A DNA stretch of 26,911 nucleotides, taken from IMG/VR virus record IMGVR_UViG_3300043438_002017, positions 1-26,911 of that record; one strand, given 5' to 3'. Source of the DNA: a virus. The position numbers and the translations under genes are program-made. The notes beneath the pieces are model-generated. The model saw only the letters and a list, made by a program, of their open reading frames with translations. It searched no databases and was not told where the DNA came from. Of the stretch, positions 9,967-24,944 are shown one piece after another; within the stretch, counting starts at the first letter, position 1; the number at the start of each line of letters is the position of its first letter.

Positions 9967-10013
9967 CTGTACATGGGATGCAGCAACGCAAACCAACAAA
10001 CGGAGAACCGAAA

Positions 10014-10247
10014 ATGAAATACACGAAAACACAAAACATTTACACGCTGTCAACCGAGCAAGTCGCAGCGTTGCCAGTCGGCCAATGGGTAACAACAGCC
10101 GACGCCGCCGACAAAACAAGCAAGGGTATTTTTCTTGGTGTACGTAAAAGCGGCGTTGTGGTTGTGGCTTGGTACATGAACGCCAAAAGCCAGTCAAGTT
10201 TCCGCGGCTACGTTCGCGCCCTTCGCAACTACGCAACAGCTAACTAA
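10014..10247 (+). CDS. Early small protein, unknown (77 aa)
   Basis: First gene after the strong promoter. The ATG at 10014 is chosen because it carries the phage's repeated start sequence GGAGAACCGAAAATG; an upstream in-frame ATG has none. The product is basic, with 'YTLSTEQVAALPVGQWVTTADAADKTSKGIFLGVRKSGVVVVAWY'. 'VAALPVGQWVTTADAA' followed by a compact beta-rich centre suggests a small folded domain, and the C-terminus 'SFRGYVRALRNYATAN' is a basic helix. It is not a family I know. First genes behind strong early promoters often act on the host, but that is inference. Confidence 0.7.
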   Translation: MKYTKTQNIYTLSTEQVAALPVGQWVTTADAADKTSKGIFLGVRKSGVVVVAWYMNAKSQSSFRGYVRALRNYATAN

Positions 10248-10257
10248 GGGGCACGAA

Positions 10258-10458
10258 ATGAGCACAAAAACCACGAAAGTTTTTTATTCATTGTCAGCCG
10301 CGGGCACGGTCAACACCACGCACATTGAACGCAAGGGCACGTTTAACGGCCGTTGCACCGAGCGGGTCGAGTGGCTTGTGTTTTTTAACAACGCCTTAAT
10401 GATCGCTTGCGACAAAAAGAAAGACGCCGAAGCATGGGCGCAAATTTACTCGAACTAA
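10258..10458 (+). CDS. Early small protein, unknown (66 aa)
   Basis: 66 residues, ATG preceded by AAGGGGCACGAA, a sequence repeated exactly before the next gene. It begins 'MSTKTTKVFYSLSAAGT' and has a beta-type pattern with 'VEWLVFFNNALMIACDKKKDAEAWAQIY'. This reads like a small beta-beta-alpha fold, and the C-terminal 'DAEAWAQIYSN' is a helix. No Cys pairs or known motif are seen. It sits 10 bp after the preceding gene in the same early operon. Function unknown. Confidence 0.65.
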   Translation: MSTKTTKVFYSLSAAGTVNTTHIERKGTFNGRCTERVEWLVFFNNALMIACDKKKDAEAWAQIYSN

Positions 10459-10471
10459 GGGGCACGAAATG
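10453..10471 (+). repeat. 19-bp gene-junction repeat (copy 2; copy 1 at 10242-10260)
   Basis: AACTAAGGGGCACGAAATG occurs twice without mismatch. In both copies it spans the last codon and stop of one gene and the ribosome-binding site and ATG of the next. The duplicated junction suggests that a gene was added by recombination or duplication at the boundary. Confidence 0.8.
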
Positions 10472-10672
10472 TTTACTTTTATTTTGGTTGTTTTTGCGTT
10501 GTTTGTGTTTGTGCACGTGGCCGCGTTAGTTGGTTATTTGACTTACTCGGGCGTCGCGTTTGTTTGGCCGAAACTACCCGCCCGCTTTTTTAAGTTTGCC
10601 AAATATGCGTTTTGTATTTACGTGGGCGGCGTTTTGTTTGTGTTGCACGTTGTGTCTGTTTTTTCTAACTAA
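10469..10672 (+). CDS. Small early membrane protein (67 aa, two predicted TM helices)
   Basis: 67 residues with two hydrophobic helices: residues 2-27 ('FTFILVVFALFVFVHVAALV') and about 45-65 ('YAFCIYVGGVLFVLHVVSVF'). A short basic linker 'WPKLPARFFKFAK' lies between them. The positive linker would place the loop in the cytoplasm with both ends outside. It is expressed early, far from the lysis gene, so an action on the host envelope such as superinfection exclusion is possible, though nothing shows it. Its codons are T-rich because of the Phe/Val/Leu content. Unknown family. Confidence 0.6.
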   Translation: MFTFILVVFALFVFVHVAALVGYLTYSGVAFVWPKLPARFFKFAKYAFCIYVGGVLFVLHVVSVFSN

Positions 10673-10697
10673 TCACATTTTCACCGGAGAACCGAAA

Positions 10698-11018
10698 ATG
10701 AACTTCACGCAAAATTTATGCAGCAACGCCCTTCGCAAAGTTGGGCTGTTGATTACCGCGGCCGCTGACCTTGGTATGGACTTGAGCAGCTACGGCGAAG
10801 CGGCCGAGAATCAAAACTCTGGCAACGTGTACTTGTGGCTCGAAGATTACCCATTCACTCTGTACATTGGTCTGGGTTCTTACGAAATTTACGCGAACTG
10901 GTCGAACTCTATCAACGGCGAGGAACAAGACGTGATGTTAGGGCGTCGCACCCTAACCGAGTTGTGCGACTGGGCGAACAATTTAACTGACTTAGCAAAC
11001 GAAGCGGAGGGTGAATAA
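10698..11018 (+). CDS. Early acidic protein, unknown (106 aa)
   Basis: 106 residues from the ATG at 10698, which follows GGAGAACCGAAA; a longer frame would run back through the membrane-protein gene in another frame and is rejected. The product is acidic with 'LRKVGLLITAAADLGMDLSSYGEAAENQNSGNVYLWLED', 'YPFTLYIGLGSYEIYANWSN', and a helical end 'RTLTELCDWANNLTDLANEAEGE'. The centre looks like antiparallel beta strands, as in DNA-mimic or small inhibitor proteins, but this is only a resemblance. The stop TAA is directly followed by the ATG of the next gene. Confidence 0.65.
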   Translation: MNFTQNLCSNALRKVGLLITAAADLGMDLSSYGEAAENQNSGNVYLWLEDYPFTLYIGLGSYEIYANWSNSINGEEQDVMLGRRTLTELCDWANNLTDLANEAEGE

Positions 11019-11195
11019 ATGAAAACTCAAAAACAGTTACAGCGTGACTATATCGCTGCCCAGTTCGCGGTACTCAACCACGACAAAATCCAACACTCAT
11101 TCAGCCTAAAAATTCATAGCGTGGCCGGAGGTACAAACTGGCTCAACGTGACACCGGAACAAATCGAAGCGATCAAAGGGGTACTTTCAAAATGA
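11019..11195 (+). CDS. Small early protein, unknown (58 aa)
   Basis: 58 codons starting immediately after the preceding stop, with GGAGGGTG about 8 bp upstream. The product begins 'MKTQKQLQRDYIAAQFAVLN' and ends 'NVTPEQIEAIKGVLSK'. It is basic and probably helix-strand-helix, with 'HSFSLKIHSVAGGTNWLNVTPEQ'-type strands in the middle. The stop overlaps the next start as ATGA. This tidy packing supports a real gene. Function unknown. Confidence 0.65.
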   Translation: MKTQKQLQRDYIAAQFAVLNHDKIQHSFSLKIHSVAGGTNWLNVTPEQIEAIKGVLSK

Positions 11196-11419
11196 AAACC
11201 AATTTAAAAAAAGCGCAAGATTTCACACTCGGCCAATGTCTGAGCGATTACCCCGCGCGGGCGTCATTTAAAAAAATCGTTGAACTGTACCGCGGCGGCT
11301 CCAGTAGCGTTACGCCTTGGCAACCGCTCGAATATTGCGACGTCGCGCACGTTATGGAAAACATGGTGTCAGCCGTCACGCGTTTGCTTGACGCTCAAGA
11401 CGCGGAGAACAAACAATGA
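11192..11419 (+). CDS. Small early protein, unknown (75 aa)
   Basis: 75 residues, coupled by ATGA overlap to both neighbours. 'KAQDFTLGQCLSDYPARASFKKIVELY' is a likely amphipathic helix pair, followed by 'VTPWQPLEYCDVAHVMENMVSAVTRLLDAQDA'. The pattern 'C..YP....F..I..L...', with a conserved-looking Trp/Pro turn, is common in small phage proteins without known function. It is predicted mainly helical and slightly acidic at its C-terminus. Confidence 0.65.
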   Translation: MKTNLKKAQDFTLGQCLSDYPARASFKKIVELYRGGSSSVTPWQPLEYCDVAHVMENMVSAVTRLLDAQDAENKQ

Positions 11420-11559
11420 CATACATACTGTACGCCCTCGCGGCTTTGGTGTTTTTAGGTTTTGGGTTGGCGGTGTTTGTGGCCATAGCGTCAGGTTTTT
11501 TTAAAGGCTTTGCGCTTGGTTTACGCGCCGTATTTTTACGCTTAAAGGGTACGATATGA
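11416..11559 (+). CDS. Small membrane peptide (47 aa)
   Basis: 47 codons with ATGA overlaps on both sides. Residues 3-28 form one long hydrophobic helix ('LYALAALVFLGFGLAVFVAI'), followed by a Gly/Phe/Arg/Lys amphipathic tail ('FFKGFALGLRAVFLRLKG'). The basic tail predicts a cytoplasmic C-terminus. It directly precedes the GIY-YIG-like gene, whose product also carries a membrane helix, so the two may work together at the membrane. That is speculative. Confidence 0.6.
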   Translation: MTYILYALAALVFLGFGLAVFVAIASGFFKGFALGLRAVFLRLKGTI

Positions 11560-12191
11560 GCAACGATAACGACGCGATTTATGTTTGGGTTGCGCAGGGT
11601 GAAAACGCGGAAACGCTTTGTAAAACCTTCGCCCCGGGGCACCTTTTGGTTAAGTTTGGCGTAACCTCACAACGCCGAGAACAAAGGCGCATACACGAGG
11701 TGGCCAAGCGTTACGGCTTTACCGCTGAAATAGTTTGTTTTCACGAAACCAAAAACGCTTTAATTGTCGAGCAATCGCTTTTAAAGTTTGGCACGCCCGC
11801 GGCCGGTGTGTATGGCGATGGCTCAACCGAATTTCGTTTCATTAGCAAAAATTTATTAGACGAGGCCGTCGAGTTTGTTAAATGCAACGCGGGGGAAAAG
11901 ATTGACCCCGCCCCCGCGCCTATACGCGAACGCTTTCAACGATACAAAGCCGCCCACACTTACCCGCGGCGAAGTTTTCAAACTAAGCGTTACTCCGACG
12001 CCCGCTACACCTCCGCGCGTACGCCGGTTAAAGCCCCCGAGCAAGACTGGTTTACAAACACGCGCGAGTATTTTCACAAAGTCGGCTTTTCTTGCGCGGT
12101 TCTAGTTTGTTCGCCCGCCTTGTTAATCGCTTGGTGCGTGCGTAAATTCCGCGGCCGGAACAAAGCTGCCCCCTTCACTATTGAGGCTTAA
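11556..12191 (+). CDS. GIY-YIG-like (T5orf172-type) domain protein with C-terminal membrane helix
   Basis: 211 residues. Residues 7-100 fit a GIY-YIG / T5orf172 fold: 'AIYVWVAQGE' (Tyr9), then 'LVKFGVTSQRREQRR' (the YIG-like strand at 32-35 with following Arg residues), 'IVCFHETKNALIVEQSLLKFG' (Glu72, the likely metal-binding residue), and 'GDGSTEFRFIS'. A basic, probably disordered linker follows (115-170). A hydrophobic segment (about 177-194, 'FSCAVLVCSPALLIAWCV') then ends in a basic stretch. This segment is unusual for a GIY-YIG protein and suggests membrane anchoring, with the nuclease-like domain in the cytoplasm. It is last of an ATGA-coupled run. Such domains can be nucleases, homing-type or anti-host, but activity is unproven. 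Confidence 0.65.
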   Translation: MSNDNDAIYVWVAQGENAETLCKTFAPGHLLVKFGVTSQRREQRRIHEVAKRYGFTAEIVCFHETKNALIVEQSLLKFGTPAAGVYGDGSTEFRFISKNLLDEAVEFVKCNAGEKIDPAPAPIRERFQRYKAAHTYPRRSFQTKRYSDARYTSARTPVKAPEQDWFTNTREYFHKVGFSCAVLVCSPALLIAWCVRKFRGRNKAAPFTIEA

Positions 12192-12193
12192 CA

Positions 12194-12523
12194 ATGAACC
12201 TTCAAAAAATAACCGACGCCTACATCGAAGCGGTTTATTTCACCGAGCAAACCCCCGACACGCCCGAGAACGAAGGGCTAGATTTAACAACCGCTTTTTT
12301 AGCCGAAGCCGTCGAAGACTGTCGCGCGTTTGTTCTGGCCGTGCAAGCGGCCGGTATCGACCCCCAAGCCGACCCCGACCAGATAGGGCACGATTTCTGG
12401 TTCACCAGAAACGGGCACGGCGTGGGGTTCTGGGATAGGCCGGAGATTTACGGCCAGTCAGACGCCGACGCCTTAACCGATATCGCGCGGGGGTTTGGCG
12501 AAGCCTACGCCGATTTTATTTAA
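12194..12523 (+). CDS. Conserved-type phage protein, 'GHDFWFTRNGHGVGFWDR' family (109 aa)
   Basis: 109 residues starting 2 bp after the GIY-YIG-like stop. It carries 'DQIGHDFWFTRNGHGVGFWDR' (shown in two parts: residues 74-80 and 81-92), a signature of a small protein family found in many phages and plasmids and still without known function. The N-terminus 'MNLQKITDAYIEAVYFTEQT' is a helix, and the middle helix is 'TTAFLAEAVEDCRAFVLAVQ'. It is acidic (pI probably near 4). A role as a small regulator or DNA-mimic is possible but unproven. The family likeness is from memory of the motif. Confidence 0.75.
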   Translation: MNLQKITDAYIEAVYFTEQTPDTPENEGLDLTTAFLAEAVEDCRAFVLAVQAAGIDPQADPDQIGHDFWFTRNGHGVGFWDRPEIYGQSDADALTDIARGFGEAYADFI

Positions 12524-12603
12524 AGCAAATCTGAAGATGGGTTGAGTACCCGAAACGCGCCCAACCATAAGCGCGTCATTTGCAAACCTTTGGAGAACCG
12601 AAA

Positions 12604-12855
12604 ATGCTCGCACGCTTTGAACTGACCGACACCTCAACCGGTGTACACGTTTTGGTAGCAACCAAAACCCCCCTCTTTCGTAACAACGTGGCCGACGTTA
12701 CCCTCATTCGTCGCGCTAAAGCCTTCGCTGGCCTGACCGGTGCACGGTGCACCGTAACCAAGGCGGGAGATTTTATCGGCATACAGCCCCGCGGCGTTAC
12801 CTTGTTCCTGTCAATCGCCAAGGGCGTGCCCCTTGTCTTGCCGGAGGGCTTTTAA
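12604..12855 (+). CDS. Small basic protein, unknown (83 aa)
   Basis: 83 residues from the ATG at 12604, again with GGAGAACCGAAAATG. It begins 'MLARFELTDTSTGVHVLVATKTP' and continues with 'DVTLIRRAKAFAGLTGARCTV', then a hydrophobic 'GVTLFLSIAKGVPLVLPEGF'. It is predicted as beta strands with one basic helix. It stands alone after an 80-bp spacer, so it may have its own control region. Function not recognised. Confidence 0.65.
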   Translation: MLARFELTDTSTGVHVLVATKTPLFRNNVADVTLIRRAKAFAGLTGARCTVTKAGDFIGIQPRGVTLFLSIAKGVPLVLPEGF

Positions 12856-12856
12856 A

Positions 12857-12982
12857 ATGCGCCCCCACAGCCGCCCGTTTATAGGCGGTCTTGCCCACTT
12901 CGTACCGTCTTTGAGGTTGGCCGTACTTCGTACCGTCGTTACGCCCGCCCGCTTCGTACCTTTTCGCTCTACCCGTCACTAG
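12857..12982 (+). CDS. Possible 41-codon basic ORF over the repeat region
   Basis: ATG just after the preceding stop, with GGAGGG 8 bp upstream. The product is 41 residues, very basic ('MRPHSRPFIGG', 'ARFVPFRSTRH'). It spans the CTTCGTACC direct repeats, which fall in different frames. This argues that the DNA repeats and not the peptide are under selection. Weak candidate. Confidence 0.25.
   Translation: MRPHSRPFIGGLAHFVPSLRLAVLRTVVTPARFVPFRSTRH
12898..12960 (+). repeat. Three iteron-like direct repeats, CTTCGTACC
   Basis: CTTCGTACC occurs at 12899-12907, 12926-12934 and 12952-12960, i.e. every 27 and 26 bp. The first two copies extend to ACTTCGTACCGTC (12898-12910 and 12925-12937). Regular spacing in a 240-bp non-coding gap before a Cro-like gene is typical of protein-binding iterons or operators. 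No inverted partner is present. The rest of 12856-13095 holds a terminator-like hairpin, a promoter-like pair, and GC-rich sequence. Confidence 0.6.
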
Positions 12983-12996
12983 GCCCGCGTATAGCC

Positions 12997-13012
12997 CGCC
13001 TAGAGGCGTTTT
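12997..13012 (+). terminator. Weak terminator-like hairpin
   Basis: CGCC TAGA GGCG followed by TTTT on the plus strand. The stem is only 4 bp of pure GC, so termination is uncertain. It would separate the early cluster from the Cro-like gene. Confidence 0.35.
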
Positions 13013-13024
13013 GCCGCCCGCCCA

Positions 13025-13053
13025 TGGTCAGCCTATGGGTCGGCCTGTATGAT
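13025..13053 (+). promoter_or_regulatory. Candidate promoter of the Cro-like gene
   Basis: -35 TGGTCA (4 of 6 to consensus), 17-bp spacer, -10 TATGAT (5 of 6). It lies 43 bp before the ATG at 13096 and just after the hairpin at 12997-13012, consistent with separate transcription of that gene. Confidence 0.45.
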
Positions 13054-13095
13054 CGCGCCTAAGCGCCCCTATTCAACCCGGAGGGCTAACCGCCT

Positions 13096-13383
13096 ATGAA
13101 TTACCAAACCATCCCCTACGAAATCAGACGGGCTAACCTACTGCTACTCATCGCAACCCTTGACGCGGGCAACCAAAGCGCGTTTGCGCGTCGCGTCGGT
13201 ATCGCTCAAACCTACATCGCCCGTTTGCTCTACACCTACGCCAAGACTGGACACAAACTGCTAGGCGAAGAAACCGCCTTGAAGATAACCCTAGCGGTGG
13301 GCTTGCCCTACGGCGGGCTAGATGCCCCCCTGACCGCGAAACAACTGTCAGCCCTACCCACAAAGGCACACCCTGACCGTTAA
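13096..13383 (+). CDS. Cro-like helix-turn-helix DNA-binding protein (95 aa)
   Basis: 95 residues, ATG with GGAGGG at 10 bp. The sequence 'RRANLLLLIATLDAGNQSAFARRVGIAQTYIARLLYTY' holds a helix-turn-helix (about residues 26-48: 'SAFARRVGIAQTYIARLL'), followed by 'LGEETALKITLAVGLPYGGLDAPL'. That ending, 'A.KI..A.GLP.G.LD', is typical of Cro/C1-type proteins of phages and their relatives. It probably binds operators in the early regions, perhaps the nearby repeats. It converges with the leftward gene at 13566-13976, with a shared terminator between them. Confidence 0.75.
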   Translation: MNYQTIPYEIRRANLLLLIATLDAGNQSAFARRVGIAQTYIARLLYTYAKTGHKLLGEETALKITLAVGLPYGGLDAPLTAKQLSALPTKAHPDR

Positions 13384-13565: not shown

Positions 13566-13976
13566 CTAGTTCGACTGGTTTCCCATTCTGTCGTGGAACA
13601 CCCGCCCCTCTGTCCCCCGTCGTATCATCGTGACGGGTACTGGCAAGTCCCGCACCCGTGCCGCGTTCAACCTCAACCCGACCGGCATCTTGTAGTCCGG
13701 CCTCAAAAACGACACGCGCCTCGTTTCTGCCACACCGCCCCCCCGCCCGCCCGATCTGCGCCGCTCGACCATCTCATTAAACCTCTGCACGAAAAGCAAC
13801 TGGTGAATGTGCTGCTCAGGCTTGTCGTCCAGAATCTTACAAATCACCTCAAACACCTTTCGCCGGTTCCTCAAGTACACGCCGACCACGTGCGCGGGGT
13901 AGTACCGGGTCAGATTTTCCACGGCCGTTTTAAACACTCCGGTCATCTGCTTGCTACTCAATTTTTCTTCACTCAT
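13566..13976 (-). CDS. Leftward protein of unknown function (136 aa), end of primase operon
   Basis: 136 residues. The ATG carries the phage's start sequence GGAGAACCGAT, which supports both the gene and its start. It is very basic, with 'SSKQMTGVFKTAVENLTRYYPAHVVGVYLRNRRKVFEVICKIL' as helical N-terminal half, a Gly/Arg-rich hinge 'RRRSGGRGGG', and an Arg-rich C-terminal half 'RVSFLRPDYKMPVGLRLNAAR'. Such charge suggests nucleic-acid binding. It lies downstream of the primase-helicase, 243 bp after that gene's stop, across G-rich repeats. It may be transcribed from its own TTGACA-containing region. No named family recognised. Confidence 0.6.
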   Translation of the reverse strand: MSEEKLSSKQMTGVFKTAVENLTRYYPAHVVGVYLRNRRKVFEVICKILDDKPEQHIHQLLFVQRFNEMVERRRSGGRGGGVAETRRVSFLRPDYKMPVGLRLNAARVRDLPVPVTMIRRGTEGRVFHDRMGNQSN

Positions 13977-14003
13977 ATCGGTTCTCCAGTTTTACTAGCA
14001 TTA

Positions 14004-14034: not shown

Positions 14035-14170
14035 GGGGGGTGGGTGGTGGGTCGGTGGGTTTCTTACTAGCGTGAAACCCACCTGACCCACTCTTACCCC
14101 CCCTTTCCCTGAAAAAGTGGGTTAGTGGGTTTTGGGTGGGTTGACCCACTTAACCCACTAAACCCACCCT
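14035..14170. repeat. GTGGGTT / AACCCAC repeat tract with large hairpins
   Basis: A tract of repeated GTGGGT units followed by their inverted form ACCCAC. Two hairpins are visible: GGTGGGTTTC with GAAACCCACC, extended outward by TGGGTC / GACCCA with a single bulged T (within 14049-14090), and a second around TTGACCCACTT-type sequence (about 14117-14170), where AGTGGGTTAGTGGGTT pairs with AACCCACTAAACCCACC in shifted register. The first part (14035-14060) has four G runs and is a G-quadruplex candidate on the plus strand. It lies between the primase-helicase and the 136-aa gene. It could be a terminator, a protein-binding array or part of a replication origin. Confidence 0.6.
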
Positions 14171-14219: not shown

Positions 14220-16310
14220 TCACTCCAAATCTGGCAACGCAACCACTGTCACGTGCTGCCCATCCTCATCAATCGACACACCTTCCGCTTTTTCAGCCAA
14301 GCGAATAAGTGCTTTTCTGAGGTTCTTTTTGCGTTCCGTAAGCGCACGACCGATAAGCGGCGTGGTGTCATCTGGCGTGCGTCTGGTCACAGCGTCGCCC
14401 ACCACATCCTCGATACTGATGCTCCCCGACTGAGACTTCGTAATGTCTCGCAGGGCTGCCATCACCAAGACTTCCAAAGGTGAAGGGGGTTTCTTTTTGG
14501 GTTGGAGCACCGGCACCGCTATTTCGAGCACGACACAAGAATCAACCGTCTCGTTAAACGAGTTGACGTACAGTTCAACCACCTGAAGGTCGAACCCCCA
14601 CTGGCCGTCATCGCGCCCGTCTTTCATCTTGGACACTTGCAAGAGGCGGCCGGTGTCGGTCTTGACGACCTCCAGTTCAGCGTCGGCCGCGGCTCTAAGG
14701 CCCGACCATCCACGGGCACCGCGGGCTTGATCTTTACCGCTGTGGTGAATCAGTAAGACCGTGGCGTGTGTGGCTTTTGCTATCGAGCGGCAATGCGCTA
14801 AGGCTTTACCCATGTCTTCGGACGAATTTTCATTAGCGCCCGGCATGACTTGCGACCACGTATCGACCACAACGAGGCCGACCCGACCGACCGCTTTGAT
14901 GGCTTCAGACACAAGTTTGGTAGCGGTTTCGTCAAGGAAGTTGGGGGCGGCGTCTAAGACGAATAACTCCATTTGCTCGGGGGCGATATTGTGGTGTTTA
15001 GCGTACGCCTTCATGCGCTTTTTGAAGCCGGTGGAGCCTTCAGCGGCGATGTAAGCGACCCGCATTTTTGATGCGCGTTTGGTGCGCCACGGCTGGCCTG
15101 TCGTGATGGCCATGACCAGATCGAGTGCGATGAAGGATTTACCAGAACCAGAGGCTCCGTACATCACGACTAAGTTGGCCTGTGGGATAACATCTTTAAT
15201 AATCCAGTCAGTGTCGGCGTTGCCGCCCATAAACTCGTTTGAGGGCTGAAAGCGGTACGGTTGGATGTCGTGGACAGGCGCATCCTGCCACTCTGTCGCT
15301 TCAAGTTCGTCAAAGTATTGGGCGTTAGCATTATCGGTGCTGCCCTGCATTTCTAGTTTGACTTCTGGCAGATTTATCGCCCAGTCGCACATATCGCGAT
15401 ACGACTGACGCTCGAACGCGGGCAACAGGATGTCTTCTGTCATCTCGGGGTCAAACTTAAACTGCCGGACGATATCAAACGTGTTGGCCACGTTGTTCGT
15501 ACCGAACGGCCACGTGTCGTGGGACGCGCCTAGGTGTTGCTCATCGTCTGTTGCGAACACTCCCCTGACCTGATGGCCGCACCACGTGAAGTGGTTGTCG
15601 TCGATGTGCTCGAACGTATCGGGCAGAAACTCCTCGATGGCCTCGTAAATATTGAACGCACGGCAAAACGCACCAATGACGTCTTGCTTGTCGCGGGGGT
15701 CTTTCAGTTCGTGCTTCTTGCCGACTGTATGGCCGCGGGGGTACGTCGGTTCTAAATGCTGTATCGCGTCCAGATACAGACCAGCATTTGTGCCCGCCTC
15801 CCAGAGTGCACCGTCTACGCGCCCAAAATAAAACGCTTGAGACTGGGTGAATGACTCACCTGTGAGAATCCCACCAAGGGCGGTGTTTAAGACCCCTACG
15901 AGGCGCTTACGCTCCTGTGGGGTGTGTGGCTTGGATAACGGGGCGATGACGCGCCAACGAGGGCCACGGAACCCACCCGTCTCGGGGTTAAACGCCTCGT
16001 TGGATGGGGAGGCGTAAATGGCCGCTTCAATGTTGGCCGCTTTGAGGCAGGCGATGGCTTGGGCGATGGTAATAACTTCAGCGTCGTAGTCCCCCTCAAC
16101 GCCGTAAATCTGCATCATGGCGGCGTTGTGCCGCAGCGACCCTTTGTTAGTTTTCGTGCCGTCAAAGGTAGCGAGTTTGAATAACGGGGCGTCCTCTTTG
16201 CACTTAAACGAGTCGGGGTTCAAGAATTTTGAACGTATCTCCGGCCAAGGTAATTCAAGTGTGTGCGCCTGCAACGCTTTGGCGTCTTTGAATATGGTGC
16301 AAGCGATCAT
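14220..16310 (-). CDS. Primase-helicase: N-terminal primase-like region and RepA-like AAA ATPase
   Basis: 696 residues from the ATG at 16310. A GTG three codons upstream gives the longer version, but the ATG overlaps the stop of a leader ORF (ATGA), so it is preferred. The N-terminal half resembles archaeo-eukaryotic primase-like domains of phage and plasmid proteins: 'VEGDYDAEVITIAQA', 'AAIYASPSNEAF' and 'GPRWRVIAPLSKP'. The C-terminal half is a RepA-like hexameric helicase ATPase (AAA_25 type): Walker A 'GASGSGKS' at 385-392, Walker B 'VVVDTWSQ' with D483, sensor-like 'LLIHHSGKD' (His522-His523), and 'RGWSGLRAAADAELEV'. It probably primes and unwinds DNA at the phage origin. It is transcribed opposite to the polymerase operon, with the Cro-like gene upstream. 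Confidence 0.85.
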   Translation of the reverse strand: MIACTIFKDAKALQAHTLELPWPEIRSKFLNPDSFKCKEDAPLFKLATFDGTKTNKGSLRHNAAMMQIYGVEGDYDAEVITIAQAIACLKAANIEAAIYASPSNEAFNPETGGFRGPRWRVIAPLSKPHTPQERKRLVGVLNTALGGILTGESFTQSQAFYFGRVDGALWEAGTNAGLYLDAIQHLEPTYPRGHTVGKKHELKDPRDKQDVIGAFCRAFNIYEAIEEFLPDTFEHIDDNHFTWCGHQVRGVFATDDEQHLGASHDTWPFGTNNVANTFDIVRQFKFDPEMTEDILLPAFERQSYRDMCDWAINLPEVKLEMQGSTDNANAQYFDELEATEWQDAPVHDIQPYRFQPSNEFMGGNADTDWIIKDVIPQANLVVMYGASGSGKSFIALDLVMAITTGQPWRTKRASKMRVAYIAAEGSTGFKKRMKAYAKHHNIAPEQMELFVLDAAPNFLDETATKLVSEAIKAVGRVGLVVVDTWSQVMPGANENSSEDMGKALAHCRSIAKATHATVLLIHHSGKDQARGARGWSGLRAAADAELEVVKTDTGRLLQVSKMKDGRDDGQWGFDLQVVELYVNSFNETVDSCVVLEIAVPVLQPKKKPPSPLEVLVMAALRDITKSQSGSISIEDVVGDAVTRRTPDDTTPLIGRALTERKKNLRKALIRLAEKAEGVSIDEDGQHVTVVALPDLE

Positions 16311-16354
16311 GCTGTACACCCGTATGATTGTTGGGTAGAATGGCGGTTAGTCAT
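16307..16354 (-). CDS. 15-codon leader ORF coupled to the primase-helicase
   Basis: ATG preceded by TTGGAGAACCGAAG, the phage's strong repeated start signal. It encodes MTNRHSTQQSYGCTA and ends with TGA that overlaps the primase-helicase ATG as ATGA. The primase-helicase start itself has no Shine-Dalgarno sequence, so ribosomes that finish the leader would restart there. The strong ribosome-binding site thus serves the primase through this leader. The peptide has no Trp, Leu or His run as in amino-acid attenuators, so coupling and not attenuation is the likely purpose. Confidence 0.6.
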   Translation of the reverse strand: MTNRHSTQQSYGCTA

Positions 16355-16381
16355 CTTCGGTTCTCCAAAATTGAAATGACA

Positions 16382-16434: not shown

Positions 16435-16674
16435 TCAACGCGCGAGTGCGGCGAAACGTGGGTGGGCGATGCTTAATGCTCTGACACCGTACAGTTTCTC
16501 GATCTGGTGGGCGCGTCGGGCAGGTGCCCATCCTTGGCGCAGCCAATTGCTGACCGCTTGCTGAGTGACACCAAGGCTTGCGGCCAACATGGCCTGCGTG
16601 CCTGCACGTGCCACGGCATCGTGGATACCATTCGGTTCGGATAAATCTACCTTCGGGTCTTCTGCTACTAGCAT
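16435..16674 (-). CDS. YdaS/Cro-like helix-turn-helix regulator (79 aa)
   Basis: 79 residues. The ATG at 16674 is chosen because GGAGAACCGACC precedes it; a longer frame starting at 16705 lies in another frame and lacks a ribosome-binding site. 'GIHDAVARAGTQAMLAASLGVTQQAVSNWLRQGWAPARRAHQIEKLYGV' (split: residues 16-39 and 40-64) matches the YdaS antitoxin / Cro-like helix-turn-helix family, with the recognition helix 'TQQAVSNWLRQG'. It is transcribed leftward from the promoter at 16739-16710. It is the natural counterpart of the divergent XRE regulator. In lambda-like logic this would be the lytic Cro protein and controls the switch. Confidence 0.85.
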   Translation of the reverse strand: MLVAEDPKVDLSEPNGIHDAVARAGTQAMLAASLGVTQQAVSNWLRQGWAPARRAHQIEKLYGVRALSIAHPRFAALAR

Positions 16675-16691
16675 GGTCGGTTCTCCGGTTG

Positions 16692-16801: not shown

Positions 16802-16852
16802 TAATACGCCCTCCGGCGTATGTGTTTTAAAATTAGGTTTTGGAGAACCGAT

Positions 16853-17407
16853 ATGGAAAACGTAAAACAGTTGGGCGAAGCCTTGGTTGAAGATAGGCTC
16901 AGGCTCGGAATCAGTCAGGCCGAGTTCGCCAATGTACTTAGAGTCAGCCAGCAATCATTGAGCAAATGGGAAGGCGACCTAGCGATACCGCGCGACCACA
17001 GGCTGATGGAGATCAAAGAGGTGTTAGGGGCTAACAGTGAGTCAGGGAAAATCATTGACAGCCTCTTAGCCTACCGCCGCAGGCCACGCGCACCCATGTT
17101 TGAGGCCGCAATAGGCCAGATCATGGGGGGCGTGGCTCCGATGGAATGGGAACGCGCCAAGGCGAGATTGGCCGACCGCATGGCGCAGCAACACTTGCAA
17201 CGCGCGGGCAAGCCTGCGCTGGCCTCCTTAATGACCGATGAAGACACCCGCTTGGCTGCGTTCGCGGCTGCGTCTAAAGACATCGCACGCGCTGCCGACA
17301 ACCTGAGCCGGGCCACCGAGATGCTCGCGCAAGCAATTTCAACATTTCATGCGTTGAGTGTGTCAAAAAACAACGAAATCGTTGAGAAGCCCGCCGATAC
17401 CAGCTAA
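16853..17407 (+). CDS. XRE-family helix-turn-helix regulator, candidate lysogeny repressor (184 aa)
   Basis: 184 residues from the ATG at 16853, which follows GGAGAACCGAT; an ATG 33 bp upstream lacks this signal. Residues 6-60 are an XRE/HTH_3 domain: 'LGEALVEDRLRLGISQAEFANVLRVSQQSLSKWEGD' with recognition helix 'SQQSLSKWEGD'. The rest is helical (residues 85-175) with 'AADNLSRATEMLAQAISTF', likely a dimerisation coiled coil. There is no LexA/CI-type peptidase domain (no Ser-Lys dyad pattern), so induction by RecA cleavage is not expected. It is alone between its own promoter and a strong terminator, as for a repressor. A different role, for example activator of lytic genes, is possible. Confidence 0.8.
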   Translation: MENVKQLGEALVEDRLRLGISQAEFANVLRVSQQSLSKWEGDLAIPRDHRLMEIKEVLGANSESGKIIDSLLAYRRRPRAPMFEAAIGQIMGGVAPMEWERAKARLADRMAQQHLQRAGKPALASLMTDEDTRLAAFAAASKDIARAADNLSRATEMLAQAISTFHALSVSKNNEIVEKPADTS

Positions 17408-17505: not shown

Positions 17506-17575
17506 ACTTTTTGGTTGTGTTACAGTTTTGTTACGCCTTTTACAGATACTAAGGCGTGAAACTTGGAGAACCGAA

Positions 17576-17668
17576 ATGAAATATTCAATCGTTGAAGACG
17601 CAATCTGTTTGGTACTGATGACCCTTGCGGGCATTAGCACCTACATCTTCCTAGCCCCTTCTTTCTGA
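17576..17668 (+). CDS. 30-residue membrane microprotein
   Basis: ATG preceded by TTGGAGAACCGAA, the repeated strong start signal. The 30 codons give 'MKYSIVEDAICLVLMTLAGI' then 'STYIFLAPSF', one short hydrophobic helix (residues 8-27). The strong start signal supports translation. It heads the replication operon and may serve mainly as a leader. Function unknown. Confidence 0.5.
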   Translation: MKYSIVEDAICLVLMTLAGISTYIFLAPSF

Positions 17669-18155: not shown

Positions 18156-19327
18156 GTGGGGTGCACGCAAAGTTGTCACCCAGCGGCGCATCCGGCTGGA
18201 TGAACTGCGTGGGGTATGTGTCCAACAACACCTCAAGTCACTACGCCAACGAAGGCACGGCCGCACACCATCTGGCCTCGATCACGCTTGACTGTAACGT
18301 GGACGCAATCACGTTCATGGGCGACGGCATGGAGACCGAGGGTGAGTATTTCGAGTTCACCCAAGAGATGTGCGACTACGTGCAGCAGTACGTCAATTTA
18401 GTTCGCAGCATTGAGGGCAGTTTGTTGGTCGAGCAATCCATGCCCATCACCTTTATCACGGGTGAGAAAGACGCTAAGGGCACATCTGACGCTGTGATTA
18501 TTGACGGCAATGAGATAGCCGTTGTCGATCTGAAATATGGCATGGGTATTAGGGTGGACGCCGAGGACAACCCGCAGCTAATGATGTACGGCGCGGCCGC
18601 GGCTAAAGAGTTTGAGGCGTTCGGACCGTTTGAGACCGTGCGCGTCATCATCAGTCAGCCGCGACTCAACCACACGTCTGAGTTCACCTACACGATGGAA
18701 GAAATCAAGCGCTTCGTGACCCGTGCGGGCGTAGCCGCGCAGATACATGGCCGCGAAGACGTTGAGATGACCGCGGGTGAAGACCAGTGCCGCTGGTGCG
18801 TGAAGTCCGGCATCTGCGAGGCGCAAACACAAACCGTTATGTCGGCCATCGCGGATGACTTCGTGGACGTATCTCAACCCATCGAGGCGAAGTTGGTCTC
18901 GGCTACTGAACTCGTTGCGGCTTGCGACCTGAACCATCTAGCCAACTGCATGAACGCCCTGCCCTTGATCGAAGGTTGGATGAAGGCGGTGCGTGCACGC
19001 GTTGAACGCGAACTGTTTGAAGGTAAAGAGGTGCGCGGCTGGAAAGTGGTTGAAGGTAAACGAGGCAACCGCGCATGGGCTGATGAAGAACGGGCACTGG
19101 CTGCGTTGATTCTGGCCGGTGTGAACGAAGAAAGTTGTTTTAAGAAATCACTGCTTTCCCCCGCGGCGGCAGAGAAGTTGTTGAAAGGCAATGAGGCATG
19201 GGCGCAAGTTGCTAATGAAGTCACACAGGCACAGGGTTCACCCAGTGTTGCGCCCGCAACCGACAGGCGCCCCGCGCTTGACATGAATGTAGCAAATCAG
19301 TTTTTAACCCTTGGAGAATCCAAATGA
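18152..19327 (+). CDS. RecB/AddB-like PD-(D/E)XK nuclease with Fe-S cysteines (DUF2800)
   Basis: 391 residues. The nuclease core shows 'GTSDAVII' (D113), 'VVDLKYG' (D126-x-K128) and 'NPQLMMYG' (Q142...Y146), the motifs of the PD-(D/E)XK / RecB family. Four cysteines, C19 near the N-terminus and C213, C216, C222 in 'CRWCVKSGIC', have the C...CxxCxxxxxC spacing of AddB- and Cas4-type iron-sulfur nucleases. Phage DUF2800 genes commonly sit next to DUF2815 and polymerase genes, as here. The role is probably end processing in phage recombination or replication. The last codons contain the ribosome-binding site of the next gene and its stop overlaps the next ATG. Confidence 0.85.
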   Translation: MSGVHAKLSPSGASGWMNCVGYVSNNTSSHYANEGTAAHHLASITLDCNVDAITFMGDGMETEGEYFEFTQEMCDYVQQYVNLVRSIEGSLLVEQSMPITFITGEKDAKGTSDAVIIDGNEIAVVDLKYGMGIRVDAEDNPQLMMYGAAAAKEFEAFGPFETVRVIISQPRLNHTSEFTYTMEEIKRFVTRAGVAAQIHGREDVEMTAGEDQCRWCVKSGICEAQTQTVMSAIADDFVDVSQPIEAKLVSATELVAACDLNHLANCMNALPLIEGWMKAVRARVERELFEGKEVRGWKVVEGKRGNRAWADEERALAALILAGVNEESCFKKSLLSPAAAEKLLKGNEAWAQVANEVTQAQGSPSVAPATDRRPALDMNVANQFLTLGESK

Positions 19328-19872: not shown

Positions 19873-19903
19873 CGCCCCCTGAAACACGGGGGCGTTTATT
19901 TTT
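19873..19903 (+). terminator. Intra-operon terminator after the SSB-like gene
   Basis: CGCCCCC (19873-19879) pairs with GGGGGCG (19888-19894), followed by TTTATTTTT. It lies 7 bp beyond the stop and runs directly into the GGAGAACCGAC signal of the next gene. It would make the SSB-like protein more abundant than the polymerase. Confidence 0.85.
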
Positions 19904-19914
19904 GGAGAACCGAC

Positions 19915-20277
19915 ATGACAACTCGTAAAGATCAGATTGAGGCCGCGTTTAAAGCGTTTCACTTGAAGAACCCCGTGGTGTTTGACACCTTCGTGATGCT
20001 TCAGCGCAAAGTGTTCGACGCGGGCTTTAAGCACTACTCGGCCATGGCCATCGTGCAGCAAGTGCGTTGGCATCACGCTATTGAGTACCGCGACCGTAAC
20101 TTGAAGATCAACAACAACTTCGCACCGCACTACTCCCGACTGTTTCACGCAACGCACCCACAGTTCAAAGGGTTCTTTCGTGAGCGAGCATTGGTGAGTG
20201 CTGCACAGCCCGCGCAAACACCTGACATTCAAGACTTCGCACCGATACGCGAAAACTTTGAACTGGATTTAGTATGA
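19915..20277 (+). CDS. Conserved-type phage protein before the polymerase (120 aa)
   Basis: 120 residues, ATG with GGAGAACCGAC. The centre 'AGFKHYSAMAIVQQVRWHHAIEYRDRNLKINNNFAPHYSRLFHATHPQFKGFFRERAL' (split across residues 37-63 and 64-94) resembles a common phage family of unknown function with 'KINN.....Y.R.F...HP....FF..R'. The region is basic and rich in aromatic residues and His, suggesting nucleic-acid contact. The stop overlaps the polymerase start (ATGA). Stoichiometric coupling to the polymerase suggests a replication accessory role. Confidence 0.7.
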   Translation: MTTRKDQIEAAFKAFHLKNPVVFDTFVMLQRKVFDAGFKHYSAMAIVQQVRWHHAIEYRDRNLKINNNFAPHYSRLFHATHPQFKGFFRERALVSAAQPAQTPDIQDFAPIRENFELDLV

Positions 20278-22334
20278 AATATTTATTCTGCGACACTGAG
20301 ACGTACTGCGAGACACCGATTAGTGTCGGCCTTCACGCATACGCTGAGAACGTGGAAATCACGCTCTGGGCGTATGCGGTTGGTGAGGGCGATGTGCACG
20401 TCTGGGACTTAACCACAGGCAGTCCCATGCCTGACGACTTGAAAAACGCGCTTGCTGATGAAACCGTGATGACGGTCTGGCACAACAGCCAGTTTGACCG
20501 CACCGTGATTCGCCACGCATTGGGCATCGACATTCCTGTATCTCGCGTGCACGACACAATGGTGCAAGCCATGTGCCACAGCCTCCCCGGCTCACTTGAT
20601 GACCTGTGCACGATATTAAGAGTGCCAGTTGAAATCGCCAAGATTAAAGACGGCAAAAAACTCGTTCTTAAATTCTGCAAGCCGCTTGCCAAGACATCCA
20701 AGATTCGCCGCGCGACACGCGAGACGCACCCCGATGAATGGGCGCGTTTTAAAGAGTACGCGGGCAACGACATCACGGCCATGCGCGAAGTGATGCGACG
20801 CTTGCCCAACTGGAACTACAAAGAGTTCGAGTACGACTTGTGGCAACTCGACCAGAAGATCAATGACCGCGGTGTTTTTATTGACGTGGCCTTAGCGCAA
20901 GCGGCGATGGACGCTGTGGCCGTGGAGCAAGAAAGTCTAGCCGCACAAACGCTTGAGATGACTGACGGGGCTGTGGCCACGGCCGGACAACGCGATGCGA
21001 TTCTCAAACATTTACGTGAGGCGTTTAATGTTGACTTGCCCGACTTACGGGGCGCAACGGTCGAGCGAAAATTAGATGACCCAGACTTACCGTTAGGTGC
21101 GCGTGAACTGCTTTTAGTACGCGCATCATCGAGCACCACCAGCACGGCCAAGTACAAGAAATTAGTCGGTGCAGTCAGTTCAGATAACCGACTGCGCGGC
21201 ACGATGCAGTTTTGTGGGGCTACGCGCACCGGACGTTGGGCGGGGCGATTAGTGCAATTGCAGAACCTACCCAGACCGTCGCTCAAGAACCCAGAGATTG
21301 AACGGGGCATCGAGGCGTTGAAAGACGGCATCGCTGACATCATTGCGCCTGACATCATGCAGCTTACATCTAGCGCAATTCGTGGGTGTCTGACCGCCCC
21401 CGAGAACAAAAAACTCTGCATCGCCGACTTATCAAATATCGAGGGCCGAGTCGCTGCATGGCTGGCCGGTGAGCAGTGGAAGCTAGACGCGTTTGCGTCC
21501 TACGACTTGGGCGCGGGCGATGACCTGTACCGCGTGGCGTATGGCCGCTCGTTTGGCGTGAAGCCCTCAGAGGTTACAGGCGACCAGAGACAAATCGGGA
21601 AGGTAATGGAGTTGGCCTTTCAGTACCAAGGTGCGCTGGGGGCGTTCTCGACCTTCGCTACTGCTTACAGCATTGACTTAGAAGAAATGGCGGGGCTTGC
21701 TCGTATGAGCATTTCATACGAGGTACTGCAACGCTCGATGGAGTGGCGCGAGAAAGCACGCGAGATGAAGATGCCTGACTTCGGGCTGACTGATGACACG
21801 TGGATTGTGTGCGATGCGATTAAGGCGTCGTGGCGTCTGGCACACCCCCGCATCACAAGTATCTGGAAAGACTTGCAAGAACAGATCGTGGCCGCTATCG
21901 GCAACCCCGACACCATCTATCGCGTACGCAACATGGCTATCCGGCGCGAGGGCAACTGGTTGCGTATCAAGTTGCCGGGCGGGCGAAGCCTCTGCTACCC
22001 ATCGCCTGAAGTACGCGACGACGGCAAGATCACCTACATGGGTACTGACCAGTACACAAGAAAGTGGCAACGCATCACGACCTACGGCGGCAAGGTGTTC
22101 GAGAACATTTGCCAAGCGGTTGCACGCGATGTGATGGCAAGTGCCATGCCATTGATCGAGGCCGCGGGCTACGAGATTGTCACAACCGTGCATGACGAGA
22201 TCATCAGCGAGACGCCTGACACCAATGAGTTTTCTGCCGACAAGTTGGCTGCACTCATGGCCACTAACCCCGCGTGGGCTAAAGGTTTGCCACTGGCCGC
22301 AGCCGGGTTCGAGTCGTACAGGTATCGCAAATGA
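20274..22334 (+). CDS. Family A DNA polymerase with 3'-5' exonuclease
   Basis: 686 residues. The exonuclease domain (1-170) has Exo I 'FCDTET' (D7, E9), Exo II 'HNSQFD' (N71, D75) and Exo III 'YAGNDITA' (D166), so proofreading looks intact. The polymerase domain has motif A 'DLSNIEGRVAAWLAGE' (D385), motif B 'RQIGKVMELAFQYQGALGAF' with Arg/Lys/Tyr in the usual places, and motif C 'TVHDEIISE' (H640-D641-E642). There is no 5'-3' exonuclease domain, typical of phage replicative enzymes. It starts with an ATGA overlap and ends with one, between the 120-aa gene and the VRR-NUC nuclease. This is the main phage replicase. Confidence 0.95.
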   Translation: MKYLFCDTETYCETPISVGLHAYAENVEITLWAYAVGEGDVHVWDLTTGSPMPDDLKNALADETVMTVWHNSQFDRTVIRHALGIDIPVSRVHDTMVQAMCHSLPGSLDDLCTILRVPVEIAKIKDGKKLVLKFCKPLAKTSKIRRATRETHPDEWARFKEYAGNDITAMREVMRRLPNWNYKEFEYDLWQLDQKINDRGVFIDVALAQAAMDAVAVEQESLAAQTLEMTDGAVATAGQRDAILKHLREAFNVDLPDLRGATVERKLDDPDLPLGARELLLVRASSSTTSTAKYKKLVGAVSSDNRLRGTMQFCGATRTGRWAGRLVQLQNLPRPSLKNPEIERGIEALKDGIADIIAPDIMQLTSSAIRGCLTAPENKKLCIADLSNIEGRVAAWLAGEQWKLDAFASYDLGAGDDLYRVAYGRSFGVKPSEVTGDQRQIGKVMELAFQYQGALGAFSTFATAYSIDLEEMAGLARMSISYEVLQRSMEWREKAREMKMPDFGLTDDTWIVCDAIKASWRLAHPRITSIWKDLQEQIVAAIGNPDTIYRVRNMAIRREGNWLRIKLPGGRSLCYPSPEVRDDGKITYMGTDQYTRKWQRITTYGGKVFENICQAVARDVMASAMPLIEAAGYEIVTTVHDEIISETPDTNEFSADKLAALMATNPAWAKGLPLAAAGFESYRYRK

Positions 22335-22597
22335 AAGAGGCAAAGATTGAGCGTTATCTGGTCAAGCGCGTTAAGGCTCTGGGCGGTGAGATTCGCAAGG
22401 TGGAGTTCATTAACCACCGCGGTGCGCCTGACCGGCGCGTGATGACGCCCCATCTGCCGCCCTTCTGGGTCGAACTCAAAGCCCCCGGCATTAGTCCCGA
22501 GCCGCATCAAGTCAGAGAGCACAAGCGTATGCGTCGCTTGGGCGAAGTCATCGAGGTCGTGGATTCAATCGAACAAGTCGATGAGGTACTGAAATGA
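22331..22597 (+). CDS. VRR-NUC domain nuclease
   Basis: 88 residues, essentially a single VRR-NUC domain. 'EAKIERYLVKRVKALGGEIRKVEF' is the first helix and strand (Glu3), then 'RGAPDRRV' (D34) and 'VELKAPG' (E48-x-K50), and 'EPHQVREHKRMRRLG' with Q60. These are the expected PD-(D/E)XK residues for stand-alone VRR-NUC enzymes. Related proteins cut branched DNA such as Holliday junctions, so resolution of replication intermediates is likely. Coupled by ATGA to polymerase and helicase genes. Confidence 0.88.
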   Translation: MKEAKIERYLVKRVKALGGEIRKVEFINHRGAPDRRVMTPHLPPFWVELKAPGISPEPHQVREHKRMRRLGEVIEVVDSIEQVDEVLK

Positions 22598-23973
22598 AGT
22601 TACGTAACTATCAGTGGGACATTGTTCGCCACATTATCGACAACAAGCGGTGTGCGGTATGGAGTTCAATGGGATCAGGGAAAACCCTAAGTACGTTAGT
22701 GGCCGTCGATATGCTGTCGATGCTGGAAGACACCTTGCCGATATTGGTTATCGCGCCCTTGCGCGTGGCCAGAACGACATGGCCAGACGAGGTGGCTAAG
22801 TGGGGTCTGACCCAGCACATGACGTGCGTGTTTATCGGCGGCACGCTTAAAGAACGCAACGCGGCCGTGCTTGAGCAAGCCGATATTTTCACCGTTAACT
22901 TCGAGATGCTGCCTTGGCTCGTTGAGCACTGTGGCGACAACTGGCCGTTCAAGATGGTGATAGTCGATGAATCCACCAAACTCAAATCGTTCAGACCACG
23001 CCAAGGCTCGATACGCGCACGCGCATTAGCCAAGGTCGCATTTAAATATGTGAACCGGATAGTTTTATTAACTGGAACCCCTGCCCCACAAGGCTTAATT
23101 GATATATGGGGTCAACAGTGGTTCATTGATTCTGGTAGCCGGTTAGGTAAATCCTACAGGGCGTTCAGTGACCGTTGGTTTCATTCGGTTCAAGTGGGCG
23201 CACACCGCGCGGCCGTGCAACTCAAGCCCATGCCCCACGCCCAGAAAGAGATCGAGGCGTTGATTAAGGACACCACGCTCACGGTCGATGTGCGCGACCA
23301 CATTGCCATTGACGAGCCGTTCGTGAACAAGATTTACGTGGACTTGCCCATCAAGGCCATGCAGCAGTACCGCGAACTTGAGCGTGAGATGTTTACCGAA
23401 CTGCAAGGCCAAGAGGTTGAGGTGTTTAACCCCGCGGCCAAGACGATGAAGTGCTTACAGATGGCAAATGGTGCGGTCTACACGACCGAGGACAACACAC
23501 AGTTTATCGAGGTGCACGATGAAAAGTTGGACGTTCTTGCAAGCGTTATTGCGGAGGCATCGGGAAACCCCGTCCTCGTCGCCTACCACTTCCGATCAGA
23601 CTTGGCGCGATTACTTAAAGCCTTCCCGCAAGGCCGTCCTCTTGACCAAGACCCAAAAACGATAGCCGACTGGAACGCCGGAAAAATCCCATTGCTATTC
23701 GCCCATCCAGCGTCAGCCGGGCACGGCCTGAACCTAGCCCAAGGCGGGCACATCCTAGCGTTCTTTTCAGTGAACTGGAACCTAGAGGAGCACTTGCAGA
23801 TTATCGAGCGTGTAGGCCCTATACGGCAGGCTCAGTTGGGCAGCGGCAAGGTATGTGAAGTGCATTACATCGTCGCGCGTAACACCGTTGACGAAATGAT
23901 TTTAGAACGACTCATCAGTAAGAAAACAGTCCAAGAAATTTTAACTAACGCGATGAAACGGAGAACGACATGA
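22594..23973 (+). CDS. SNF2-like superfamily 2 helicase/translocase
   Basis: 459 residues. 'LRNYQWDIVRHII' is the Q-type entry motif, followed by Walker A 'SSMGSGKT' (24-31), motif Ia 'LVIAPLRVARTTWPDEV', DEAH-box variant 'DEST' (125-128), motif III 'LLTGTPAPQ' (158-166), motif V-type 'HPASAGHGLNLAQGG' and a motif VI variant 'QIIERVGPIRQ'. This is the phage SNF2-like type commonly next to VRR-NUC and polymerase genes. It may remodel forks or serve origin melting; a direct partner to the adjacent nuclease is plausible. The frame ends by ATGA overlap with the DUF3310 gene. Motif order is complete. Confidence 0.9.
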   Translation: MKLRNYQWDIVRHIIDNKRCAVWSSMGSGKTLSTLVAVDMLSMLEDTLPILVIAPLRVARTTWPDEVAKWGLTQHMTCVFIGGTLKERNAAVLEQADIFTVNFEMLPWLVEHCGDNWPFKMVIVDESTKLKSFRPRQGSIRARALAKVAFKYVNRIVLLTGTPAPQGLIDIWGQQWFIDSGSRLGKSYRAFSDRWFHSVQVGAHRAAVQLKPMPHAQKEIEALIKDTTLTVDVRDHIAIDEPFVNKIYVDLPIKAMQQYRELEREMFTELQGQEVEVFNPAAKTMKCLQMANGAVYTTEDNTQFIEVHDEKLDVLASVIAEASGNPVLVAYHFRSDLARLLKAFPQGRPLDQDPKTIADWNAGKIPLLFAHPASAGHGLNLAQGGHILAFFSVNWNLEEHLQIIERVGPIRQAQLGSGKVCEVHYIVARNTVDEMILERLISKKTVQEILTNAMKRRTT

Positions 23974-24269
23974 TTGGACCAACACAAGCAGAAATAGACC
24001 AGAAAAACGAGTGGCTATATGAGCAAGCCCGCATGGCGCAACAGCAGGCGCACTTGATACCTCGCGATAACGACCCCGTGAACCACCCCAAGCACTACAC
24101 CGAGCATCCGAGTGGCGTTGAGTGCATCCAAATTACCGAGCACATGGGTTTTTGTCTGGGCAACGCCGTGAAATACATCTGGCGTGCCGACCTGAAGGCT
24201 GATGCCATCGAAGATTTAAAAAAAGCGGCTTGGTATATCAACCGTGAAATTGAGAGGCGCACGAAATGA
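23970..24269 (+). CDS. DUF3310 protein
   Basis: 99 residues. The C-terminal two thirds fits DUF3310: 'DPVNHPKHYTEHPSGVECI', 'ITEHMGFCLGNAVKYIWRAD' and 'DAIEDLKKAAWYINREIER'. The N-terminal 30 residues are a Gln-rich helix. The family occurs in many phages, sometimes fused to nucleotide-metabolism enzymes; its biochemical activity is not firmly known. It follows the helicase through an ATGA overlap, with GGAGAACGAC just before the ATG (a variant of the repeated start signal). Confidence 0.88.
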   Translation: MIGPTQAEIDQKNEWLYEQARMAQQQAHLIPRDNDPVNHPKHYTEHPSGVECIQITEHMGFCLGNAVKYIWRADLKADAIEDLKKAAWYINREIERRTK

Positions 24270-24382
24270 TGCTTTATTACTTTGAGAGAGTGATGACTTT
24301 CATTATGTTCACGATGCTTTTTATCCTCCCGTTCCTTGCTGGGTACTGCGTTGGCAAATGGGTCGAAAGGAGCAAGAGATGA
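24266..24382 (+). CDS. 38-residue membrane microprotein
   Basis: ATG overlapping the DUF3310 stop (ATGATG), and stop overlapping the next start (ATGA). The product has one hydrophobic helix, 'VMTFIMFTMLFILPFLAGYC' (residues 9-28), followed by a basic tail 'GKWVERSKR', predicting N-out/C-in topology. Both overlaps support a real gene. Function unknown. Confidence 0.6.
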   Translation: MMLYYFERVMTFIMFTMLFILPFLAGYCVGKWVERSKR

Positions 24383-24615
24383 CTAACGAAGATGACGATT
24401 TACTGTGGGCTGACGGGCTGCTGAACGCAGTCATCGGCATTGCCACCCGAGCCGATGGCTTGCGGGTCGTGTGCTACAGCGTGGACAAGGTAATTGAGAC
24501 CCTGATGAAGCGCGACGGGATGACTGAGGAAGAAGCGTACGAGTTTTACGAGTTCAACATCGCCTGCGCGTGGGTGGGCGATAAGACCCCCATTTTCGTT
24601 GAGGCAACAGAATGA
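24379..24615 (+). CDS. Conserved-type small phage protein (78 aa)
   Basis: 78 residues from the ATG at 24379, chosen for AAAGGAG at 9 bp and the overlap with the preceding stop. 'DGLLNAVIGIATRADGLRVVCYSVDKVIETLMKRDGMTEEEAYEFYEFNIACAWVGDKTP' (split at residue 43) resembles a family often found in phages and large viruses with 'DGM...EA.E...FN..GA..G..TP.F'. It is acidic. Function unknown. Overlap with the next gene is ATGA. Confidence 0.7.
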   Translation: MTNEDDDLLWADGLLNAVIGIATRADGLRVVCYSVDKVIETLMKRDGMTEEEAYEFYEFNIACAWVGDKTPIFVEATE

Positions 24616-24944
24616 ACAAACCCCTCACCCTTCAGCAAGCCGCAGACGCCTTGGGGCTGCACTACAACACGGTCTTTGCCCGCCGCCACCAGATAGGCTT
24701 CAGACTGCCCGGCTGCGCTAAATGGCTCATCTGGCCAGAAACAATAAACAATTTACAACCAAACAGTTGTGCTAATATTATCCCGCTATCGCTGCGGGCA
24801 GTTGGAGAACCAAAATGTCAATCTTCAAACACCCCGAGTCCGGCGTATGGTTCGTTGACCTCACGCTCACAAGTGGAGCGAGAATTAGACGCTCTACTAA
24901 AACAAAGGACAGGAAAGCGGCACAGGAGTACCACGACCGGCTAA
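24612..24944 (+). CDS. xis: Excisionase-like helix-turn-helix protein, overlapping the integrase gene
   Basis: 110 residues. 'PLTLQQAADALGLHYNTVFARRHQIGF' followed by 'RLPGCAKWLIWPETI' is a MerR/excisionase-like winged helix (residues 3-43), with the usual 'RLPG..W.I....I' wing. The rest (44-110) is Ser/Thr/Arg-rich and overlaps the first 130 bp of the integrase gene in another frame. A lambda-like xis-int overlap is the parallel. It likely bends attP DNA and directs excision. Alternatively, only the first 50 residues fold and the tail is a by-product of the overlap. Xis call is from the fold and position. Confidence 0.65.
   Translation: MNKPLTLQQAADALGLHYNTVFARRHQIGFRLPGCAKWLIWPETINNLQPNSCANIIPLSLRAVGEPKCQSSNTPSPAYGSLTSRSQVERELDALLKQRTGKRHRSTTTG
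24752..24781 (+). promoter_or_regulatory. Integrase promoter inside the xis-like gene
   Basis: -35 TTTACA (24752-24757), 18-bp spacer, -10 TATTAT (24776-24781), each 5 of 6. An inverted repeat ACAAC / GTTGT (24755-24759, 24766-24770) overlies the spacer and may be an operator. A CCCGC/GCGGG hairpin follows (24782-24798), then GGAGAACCAAA. It would let int be made without the upstream operon, as in a lysogeny-stage int promoter. Confidence 0.65.

Follow-up and report, generated by a model that had tools for sequence, protein, structure and literature searches.

A repeated ribosome-site sequence marks early starts without translational coupling in a probable BPP-1-like podophage

Start-associated sequences (SAS) have been reported from actinobacteriophages since 2011, without an assigned function (PMC3203893, PMC7302621). 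In Cluster K mycobacteriophages, 11-19 copies of the SAS GGGATAGGAGCCC occupy the position of the ribosome binding site (RBS) in the non-structural half of the genome, mostly at genes lying >50 bp from their neighbour; exact copies are absent from the host, the sequence includes bases unable to pair with 16S rRNA, and its function is unassigned (PMC3203893). Cluster EF Microbacterium phages contain ten copies of the SAS GGGAAAGGACCCC, likewise with no function assigned (PMC7302621). Here we describe a repeated sequence, GGAGAACCGA (core GGAGAACC), in the IMG/VR virus record IMGVR_UViG_3300043438_002017, whose 26,911 bases were analyzed as a whole and are called the window in the following. Late genes run leftward from ~9.7 kb, and the early/regulatory half runs rightward. 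The motif marks early starts that lack translational coupling, and this is the clearest pattern in the data.

A reading of the sequence alone had proposed that one extended RBS recurs at ten places on both strands, mostly followed by GA. Both observations were confirmed. The window contains 10 exact copies of GGAGAACC, whereas shuffled sequences contain 0.61 on average and never more than 4. They begin at 10002, 10686, 12592, 16842, 17565, 19904 and 24804 on the plus strand and have their 5' ends at 13987, 16366 and 16686 on the minus strand. The 10-letter form GGAGAACCGA is exact at nine of the ten sites, the copy at 24804 reading GGAGAACCAA, and the gap between the end of the motif and the ATG is 1-2 nt in all ten. 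A search with two mismatches allowed gave no excess (26 vs 21), so the signal resides in the exact copies.

A start was classed as coupled when an upstream stop on the same strand lay within -30 to +15 nt of it, and 41 starts were classed in this way. Among the early starts, 10 of the 12 uncoupled ones carry the motif, compared with none of the 18 coupled ones (Fisher p = 2.2e-6). The five uncoupled late starts all lack it (p = 0.003 vs early), and it is found at none of the late virion genes in the window; the restriction to early/regulatory genes, already noticed in the sequence-only reading, is thus real. The start at 16354 on the minus strand had been taken for that of a gene, which did not hold: the motif copy there (16357-16366) precedes a 15-codon minicistron (16307-16354) encoding MTNRHSTQQSYGCTA. 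The stop codon TGA of this minicistron overlaps the ATG of the primase/helicase gene (14220-16310, minus strand; AAA_25, phrog primase families) at 16310 in the form ATGA, so the primase is probably translated by coupling to the minicistron. The copy at 24804-24813 does precede the integrase gene (24815-25876), as had been stated, with the correction that this start lies 130 nt inside an upstream excisionase-like open reading frame (ORF). Since the motif is present at the minicistron and at the integrase within the excisionase-like ORF, the rule appears to be that a start cannot be reached by coupling, not that it follows an intergenic gap.

Column statistics showed that positions 0-9 are conserved, AACC being invariant and GA nearly invariant. 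Just outside the motif there is a weak A/T preference, with a mild preference for T at -1 and -2, and most columns between -60 and -3 and past +17 are close to the background level. Because conservation fades near the motif edges, constraint is likelier than the recent duplication of a longer leader, which was ruled out as the source of the copies by the unconserved flanks. The 16S rRNA 3' end reads ...GGAAGGTGCGGCTGGATCACCTCCTTT in two genomes of the Alcaligenaceae, the likely host family; with the host-family end ...GCGGCTGGATCACCTCCTTTC, AACCGA would be left without pairing beside GGAG. Judged from these sequences, GGAG forms the whole Shine-Dalgarno (SD) helix with host-family 16S rRNA, in agreement with the earlier statement that GGAG alone is explained by pairing. 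In E. coli, helix 45 contains CGGUU, which would pair with AACCG. Extended pairing through helix 45 was rejected here, since the host family reads CGGCU, an imperfect partner of AACCG.

The motif is also rare in the likely host family. A survey of 268 genomes of the family counted 0-3 copies of GGAGAACCGA-N(0-2)-ATG in each, with no clustering among the matches listed. The shorter GGAGAACC-N(1-5)-ATG reaches about 0.3-6 per Mb in 21 host-family genomes, compared with 10 in the 27 kb window, and the longer form before ATG about 0.1 per Mb. In host loci, 122 starts of the GGAG type were compared, and GGAGAACC is absent from them all.

Several features are shared with the Cluster K SAS. Both are short asymmetric repeats placed at the ribosome site near start codons, with an SD core and conserved bases beyond the 16S pairing. 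Both are confined to non-structural genes that are mostly set apart from their upstream neighbour (here, uncoupled starts), and both are absent or nearly absent from the host. The Cluster EF SAS resembles the motif in having ten highly conserved copies at ribosome-site positions. GGAGAACCGA does not match the consensus of either cluster, and it is present on both strands of a Betaproteobacteria podophage. In addition, the extended SAS (ESAS), an imperfect 17-bp inverted repeat located 5' of the Cluster K SAS and also tied to the EF SAS, has no counterpart here, the alignment showing no conserved column block 5' of the motif. By analogy, we class the motif as an SAS-type example with an unrelated sequence. 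Three actinophage-like high-GC contigs, L114, L142 and L174, carry GGGAGAACC nine, four and four times, respectively, and thus likewise repeat GGAGAACC just before start codons; their genomes are unrelated to the window, and L114 and L142 have an additional ACAACCGA-like stretch just upstream. These contigs were found by motif search and are hence selected for the motif. A case with a different sequence in a small temperate Betaproteobacteria podophage suggests that the strategy recurs among phages, and the split between coupled and uncoupled starts provides a testable rule for start-associated sequences. The motif is short and occurs naturally in ten copies and in variant forms, and some members of the likely host family can be cultured.

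The sequence-only reading had named a motif search across the genome and its relatives as a check. Outside the ten copies of the window, the motif was kept or gained in two near-identical contigs, L212 and L299, and was absent from the other relatives examined, including the syntenic right part of Bordetella phage BPP-1, which contains no GGAGAACC. Across much of 10-12.9 kb, both contigs match the window almost completely, L212 ending earlier. The 10002 copy is unchanged in both, and so is the 10686 copy, though the gene behind it differs by ~25%. At the 12592 copy, L299 has GGAGACCCGA. In both contigs, the window gene at 11019 is swapped for an unrelated gene, the 4-nt overlap at the next start (11192) is lost, and this start bears GGAGAACCGAAA in place of the window's GGGGTACTTTCAAA. 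Conversely, the L233 homolog of the 17576 peptide has no motif and starts directly behind an upstream stop. In the sequences compared, these two informative changes track the loss and the gain of coupling. Relatives identified by their DNA polymerase showed no repeated use of the motif; among portal relatives with other early modules, L228, L232 and L233 lack GGAGAACC and elsewhere single copies are scattered. A primase-based search returned one distant match. In scans of viral contigs, a 14-mer gave mostly single copies among the matches listed and a 16-base pattern gave 80 stretches; with both scans pooled, 6 of 188 stretches had at least three copies before start codons, among the matches listed. 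From these comparisons the motif appears specific to the lineage of the window.

We consider it fairly probable that translation initiation is the role of this start-associated element, which would serve as a stand-alone RBS for uncoupled early, replication and lysogeny genes. GGAG would recruit the 30S subunit by a 4-bp SD helix, and AACCGA may serve as a constant spacer or as a segment to be recognized, which would bring initiation of the motif genes to a common level and time. Several points weigh against this interpretation. The uncoupled early starts 13096 and ~24293 have no motif, and both the list of genes and the assignment to coupling classes reflect the analyst's own calls. A strong simple RBS needs no AACCGA, which leaves the conserved tail partly unexplained. 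Furthermore, the BPP-1 orthologs do without the motif, and the relatives bearing it differ so little from the window across much of the region that they say little about conservation at greater distances.

The conserved tail could alternatively be read by a factor. If GGAGAACCGA were a shared operator, one trans-acting factor (a protein, an RNA or a nuclease) would recognize AACCGA beside the SD core and set the early and lysogeny genes of both strands jointly, the coupled genes following passively. We consider this somewhat unlikely; if true, the start-associated sequences of actinobacteriophages, so far unexplained, would follow the same logic. A more specific version, an operator for a phage or host RNA-binding translational regulator with T4 RegA-like logic and the early genes as a post-transcriptional regulon, seems rather unlikely to us. 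An exact conservation that exceeds SD pairing would fit such a regulator, as would the confinement to early/regulatory genes on both strands. So would the Arg/Gly-rich protein encoded at 13566-13976 (minus strand), which has no assigned family and whose gene itself has a motif copy (13978-13987). None of the known RNA-binding regulators, RegA and CsrA included, came up in Pfam and PHROG scans of the window, possibly an incomplete genome, and the site selected for RegA by SELEX differs from the motif (PMC3014915).

The sequence could also fold into a minimal hairpin, pyrimidine-GG[AGAA]CC-purine, and so present the SD core to a binding protein or mask it. All ten copies have C or T at -1, a base able to pair with +8 throughout (as T-A at 24804), local folding gives P >= 0.63 at 8 of 10 sites, and the stem is retained in the variants at 24804 and 19313 and in L299. 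Against this, the stem has just 3-4 pairs, was noticed post hoc, and reaches P >= 0.74 at only 5 of 10 sites when 40-nt flanks are included. The pyrimidine at -1, found at 43-47% of other GGAG starts, may equally reflect an SD helix that is kept short. In SD accessibility, the motif sites were indistinguishable from other starts (p = 1.0), by which better accessibility of the motif sites was rejected as well. We regard the hairpin as improbable. The same low probability is given to a shared linker favouring module exchange through short-homology recombination. Here the window and L212/L299 are near-identical through the 10686 copy and the following ATGAA before they diverge over the gene, and a Gp2.5-like annealing protein is encoded at 19324. 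This is, however, a single junction whose other end (about 11333) lies mid-gene, and recombination leaves the motif-free coupled starts unexplained. Both the RNA-binding regulator and the linker had been raised in the sequence-only reading, whose interpretation is supported in part.

Early-gene ribosome sites are also the targets of the T4 endoribonuclease RegB, for which the strong-site consensus GG*AGRAYARAA has been described (PMC3014915). Cutting of GG*AG by a RegB-type enzyme, aided by ribosomal protein S1, would shut off the early mRNAs. GGAGAACCGAA agrees with this consensus at 10 of 11 positions, motif sites match 5-6 of the 7 downstream positions, a level of at least 5 of 7 that other GGAG starts reach in 6-13%, and the distribution is early-only, as in T4. 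Since all copies share one sequence, this match is a single observation of roughly p 0.02-0.1, and the consensus is largely an A-rich spacer. T4 RegB sites are degenerate, whereas one exact sequence is used here. No RegB homolog was found in the window, which may be incomplete (no PF10715 match even at E 10), and we judge this reading highly improbable. That the motif is simply the habitual RBS of the host can practically be dismissed: scattered host genes do carry GGAGAACC before ATG, but its rarity per genome and its absence from the 122 host GGAG starts refute the idea for the Alcaligenaceae, and only a different true host with such a habit would revive it.

On the plus strand, the copy at 10002-10011, with a sigma70-like promoter (TTGACA-18-TATAGT, 9937-9966) just 5' of it, precedes a small early gene (10014-10247); those at 10686-10695 and 12592-12601 precede the genes 10698-11018 and 12604-12855. 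In L299, an insertion of ~62 nt relative to the window is present at about 12869, just after the latter gene. On the minus strand, the copy at 16677-16686 precedes a Cro/YdaS-like regulator (16435-16674), and on the plus strand the copy at 16842-16851 precedes an HTH repressor-like gene (16853-17407). The copies at 17565-17574 and 19904-19913 stand before a 30-aa ORF (17576-17668) and the gene 19915-20277; the T tract of a terminator-like hairpin (19873-19903) leads directly into the latter copy. Weaker variants had been announced at 19324 and 23970. Both exist, GGAGAATCCA at 19313-19322 before the Gp2.5-like SSB gene and GGAGAACGAC at 23960-23969 before the DUF3310 gene, and a third, GGAGAACAAA, was found at 11404-11413 before the gene 11416-11559; all three are weak and belong to coupled starts. 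A second repeated ribosome site, AAGGGGCACGAAATG, is located at two consecutive coupled genes (10246-10260 and 10457-10471). A probable unlisted small ORF of membrane type, 24293-24382 (MTFIMFTMLFILPFLAGYCVGKWVERSKR), overlaps the next gene, and for the ORF listed at 24358 the likely start is 24379.

The window probably represents a BPP-1-like podophage with a temperate lifestyle. It shares 58-59% DNA polymerase identity with BPP-1, and its gene order is BPP-1-like: primase, Cro, repressor, DUF2800 exonuclease-like gene, ssDNA-binding protein and polymerase, continuing with a small nuclease-like gene, helicase, the DUF3310 gene, excisionase and integrase. Behind the integrase, an attP-like piece of 47 bases (25891-25937) resembles the 3' half of tRNA-Met. 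Exact matches of this 47-mer were found mostly in Alcaligenaceae genomes, which makes a temperate phage probable and the Alcaligenaceae its probable host family, an assignment drawn from attP. Scanning the window for Rfam families and tRNAs gave no matches, and a first, terminase-based scan of genome contigs found no prophage. Between the late and early operons, TGTTTCACGTGAAACA, which we take to be the chromosomal ParB-binding site parS, occurs as a perfect and a 15/16 copy 32 bp apart (9709-9724 and 9741-9756). No ParB was found among the window proteins scanned; the core of this sequence is also present in L209, L210, L212 and L299. Adjoining the primase gene, the region 14035-14165 contains G-rich GGGT/GTGGGTT repeats followed by their complements, which could be a replication origin or form a G-quadruplex.

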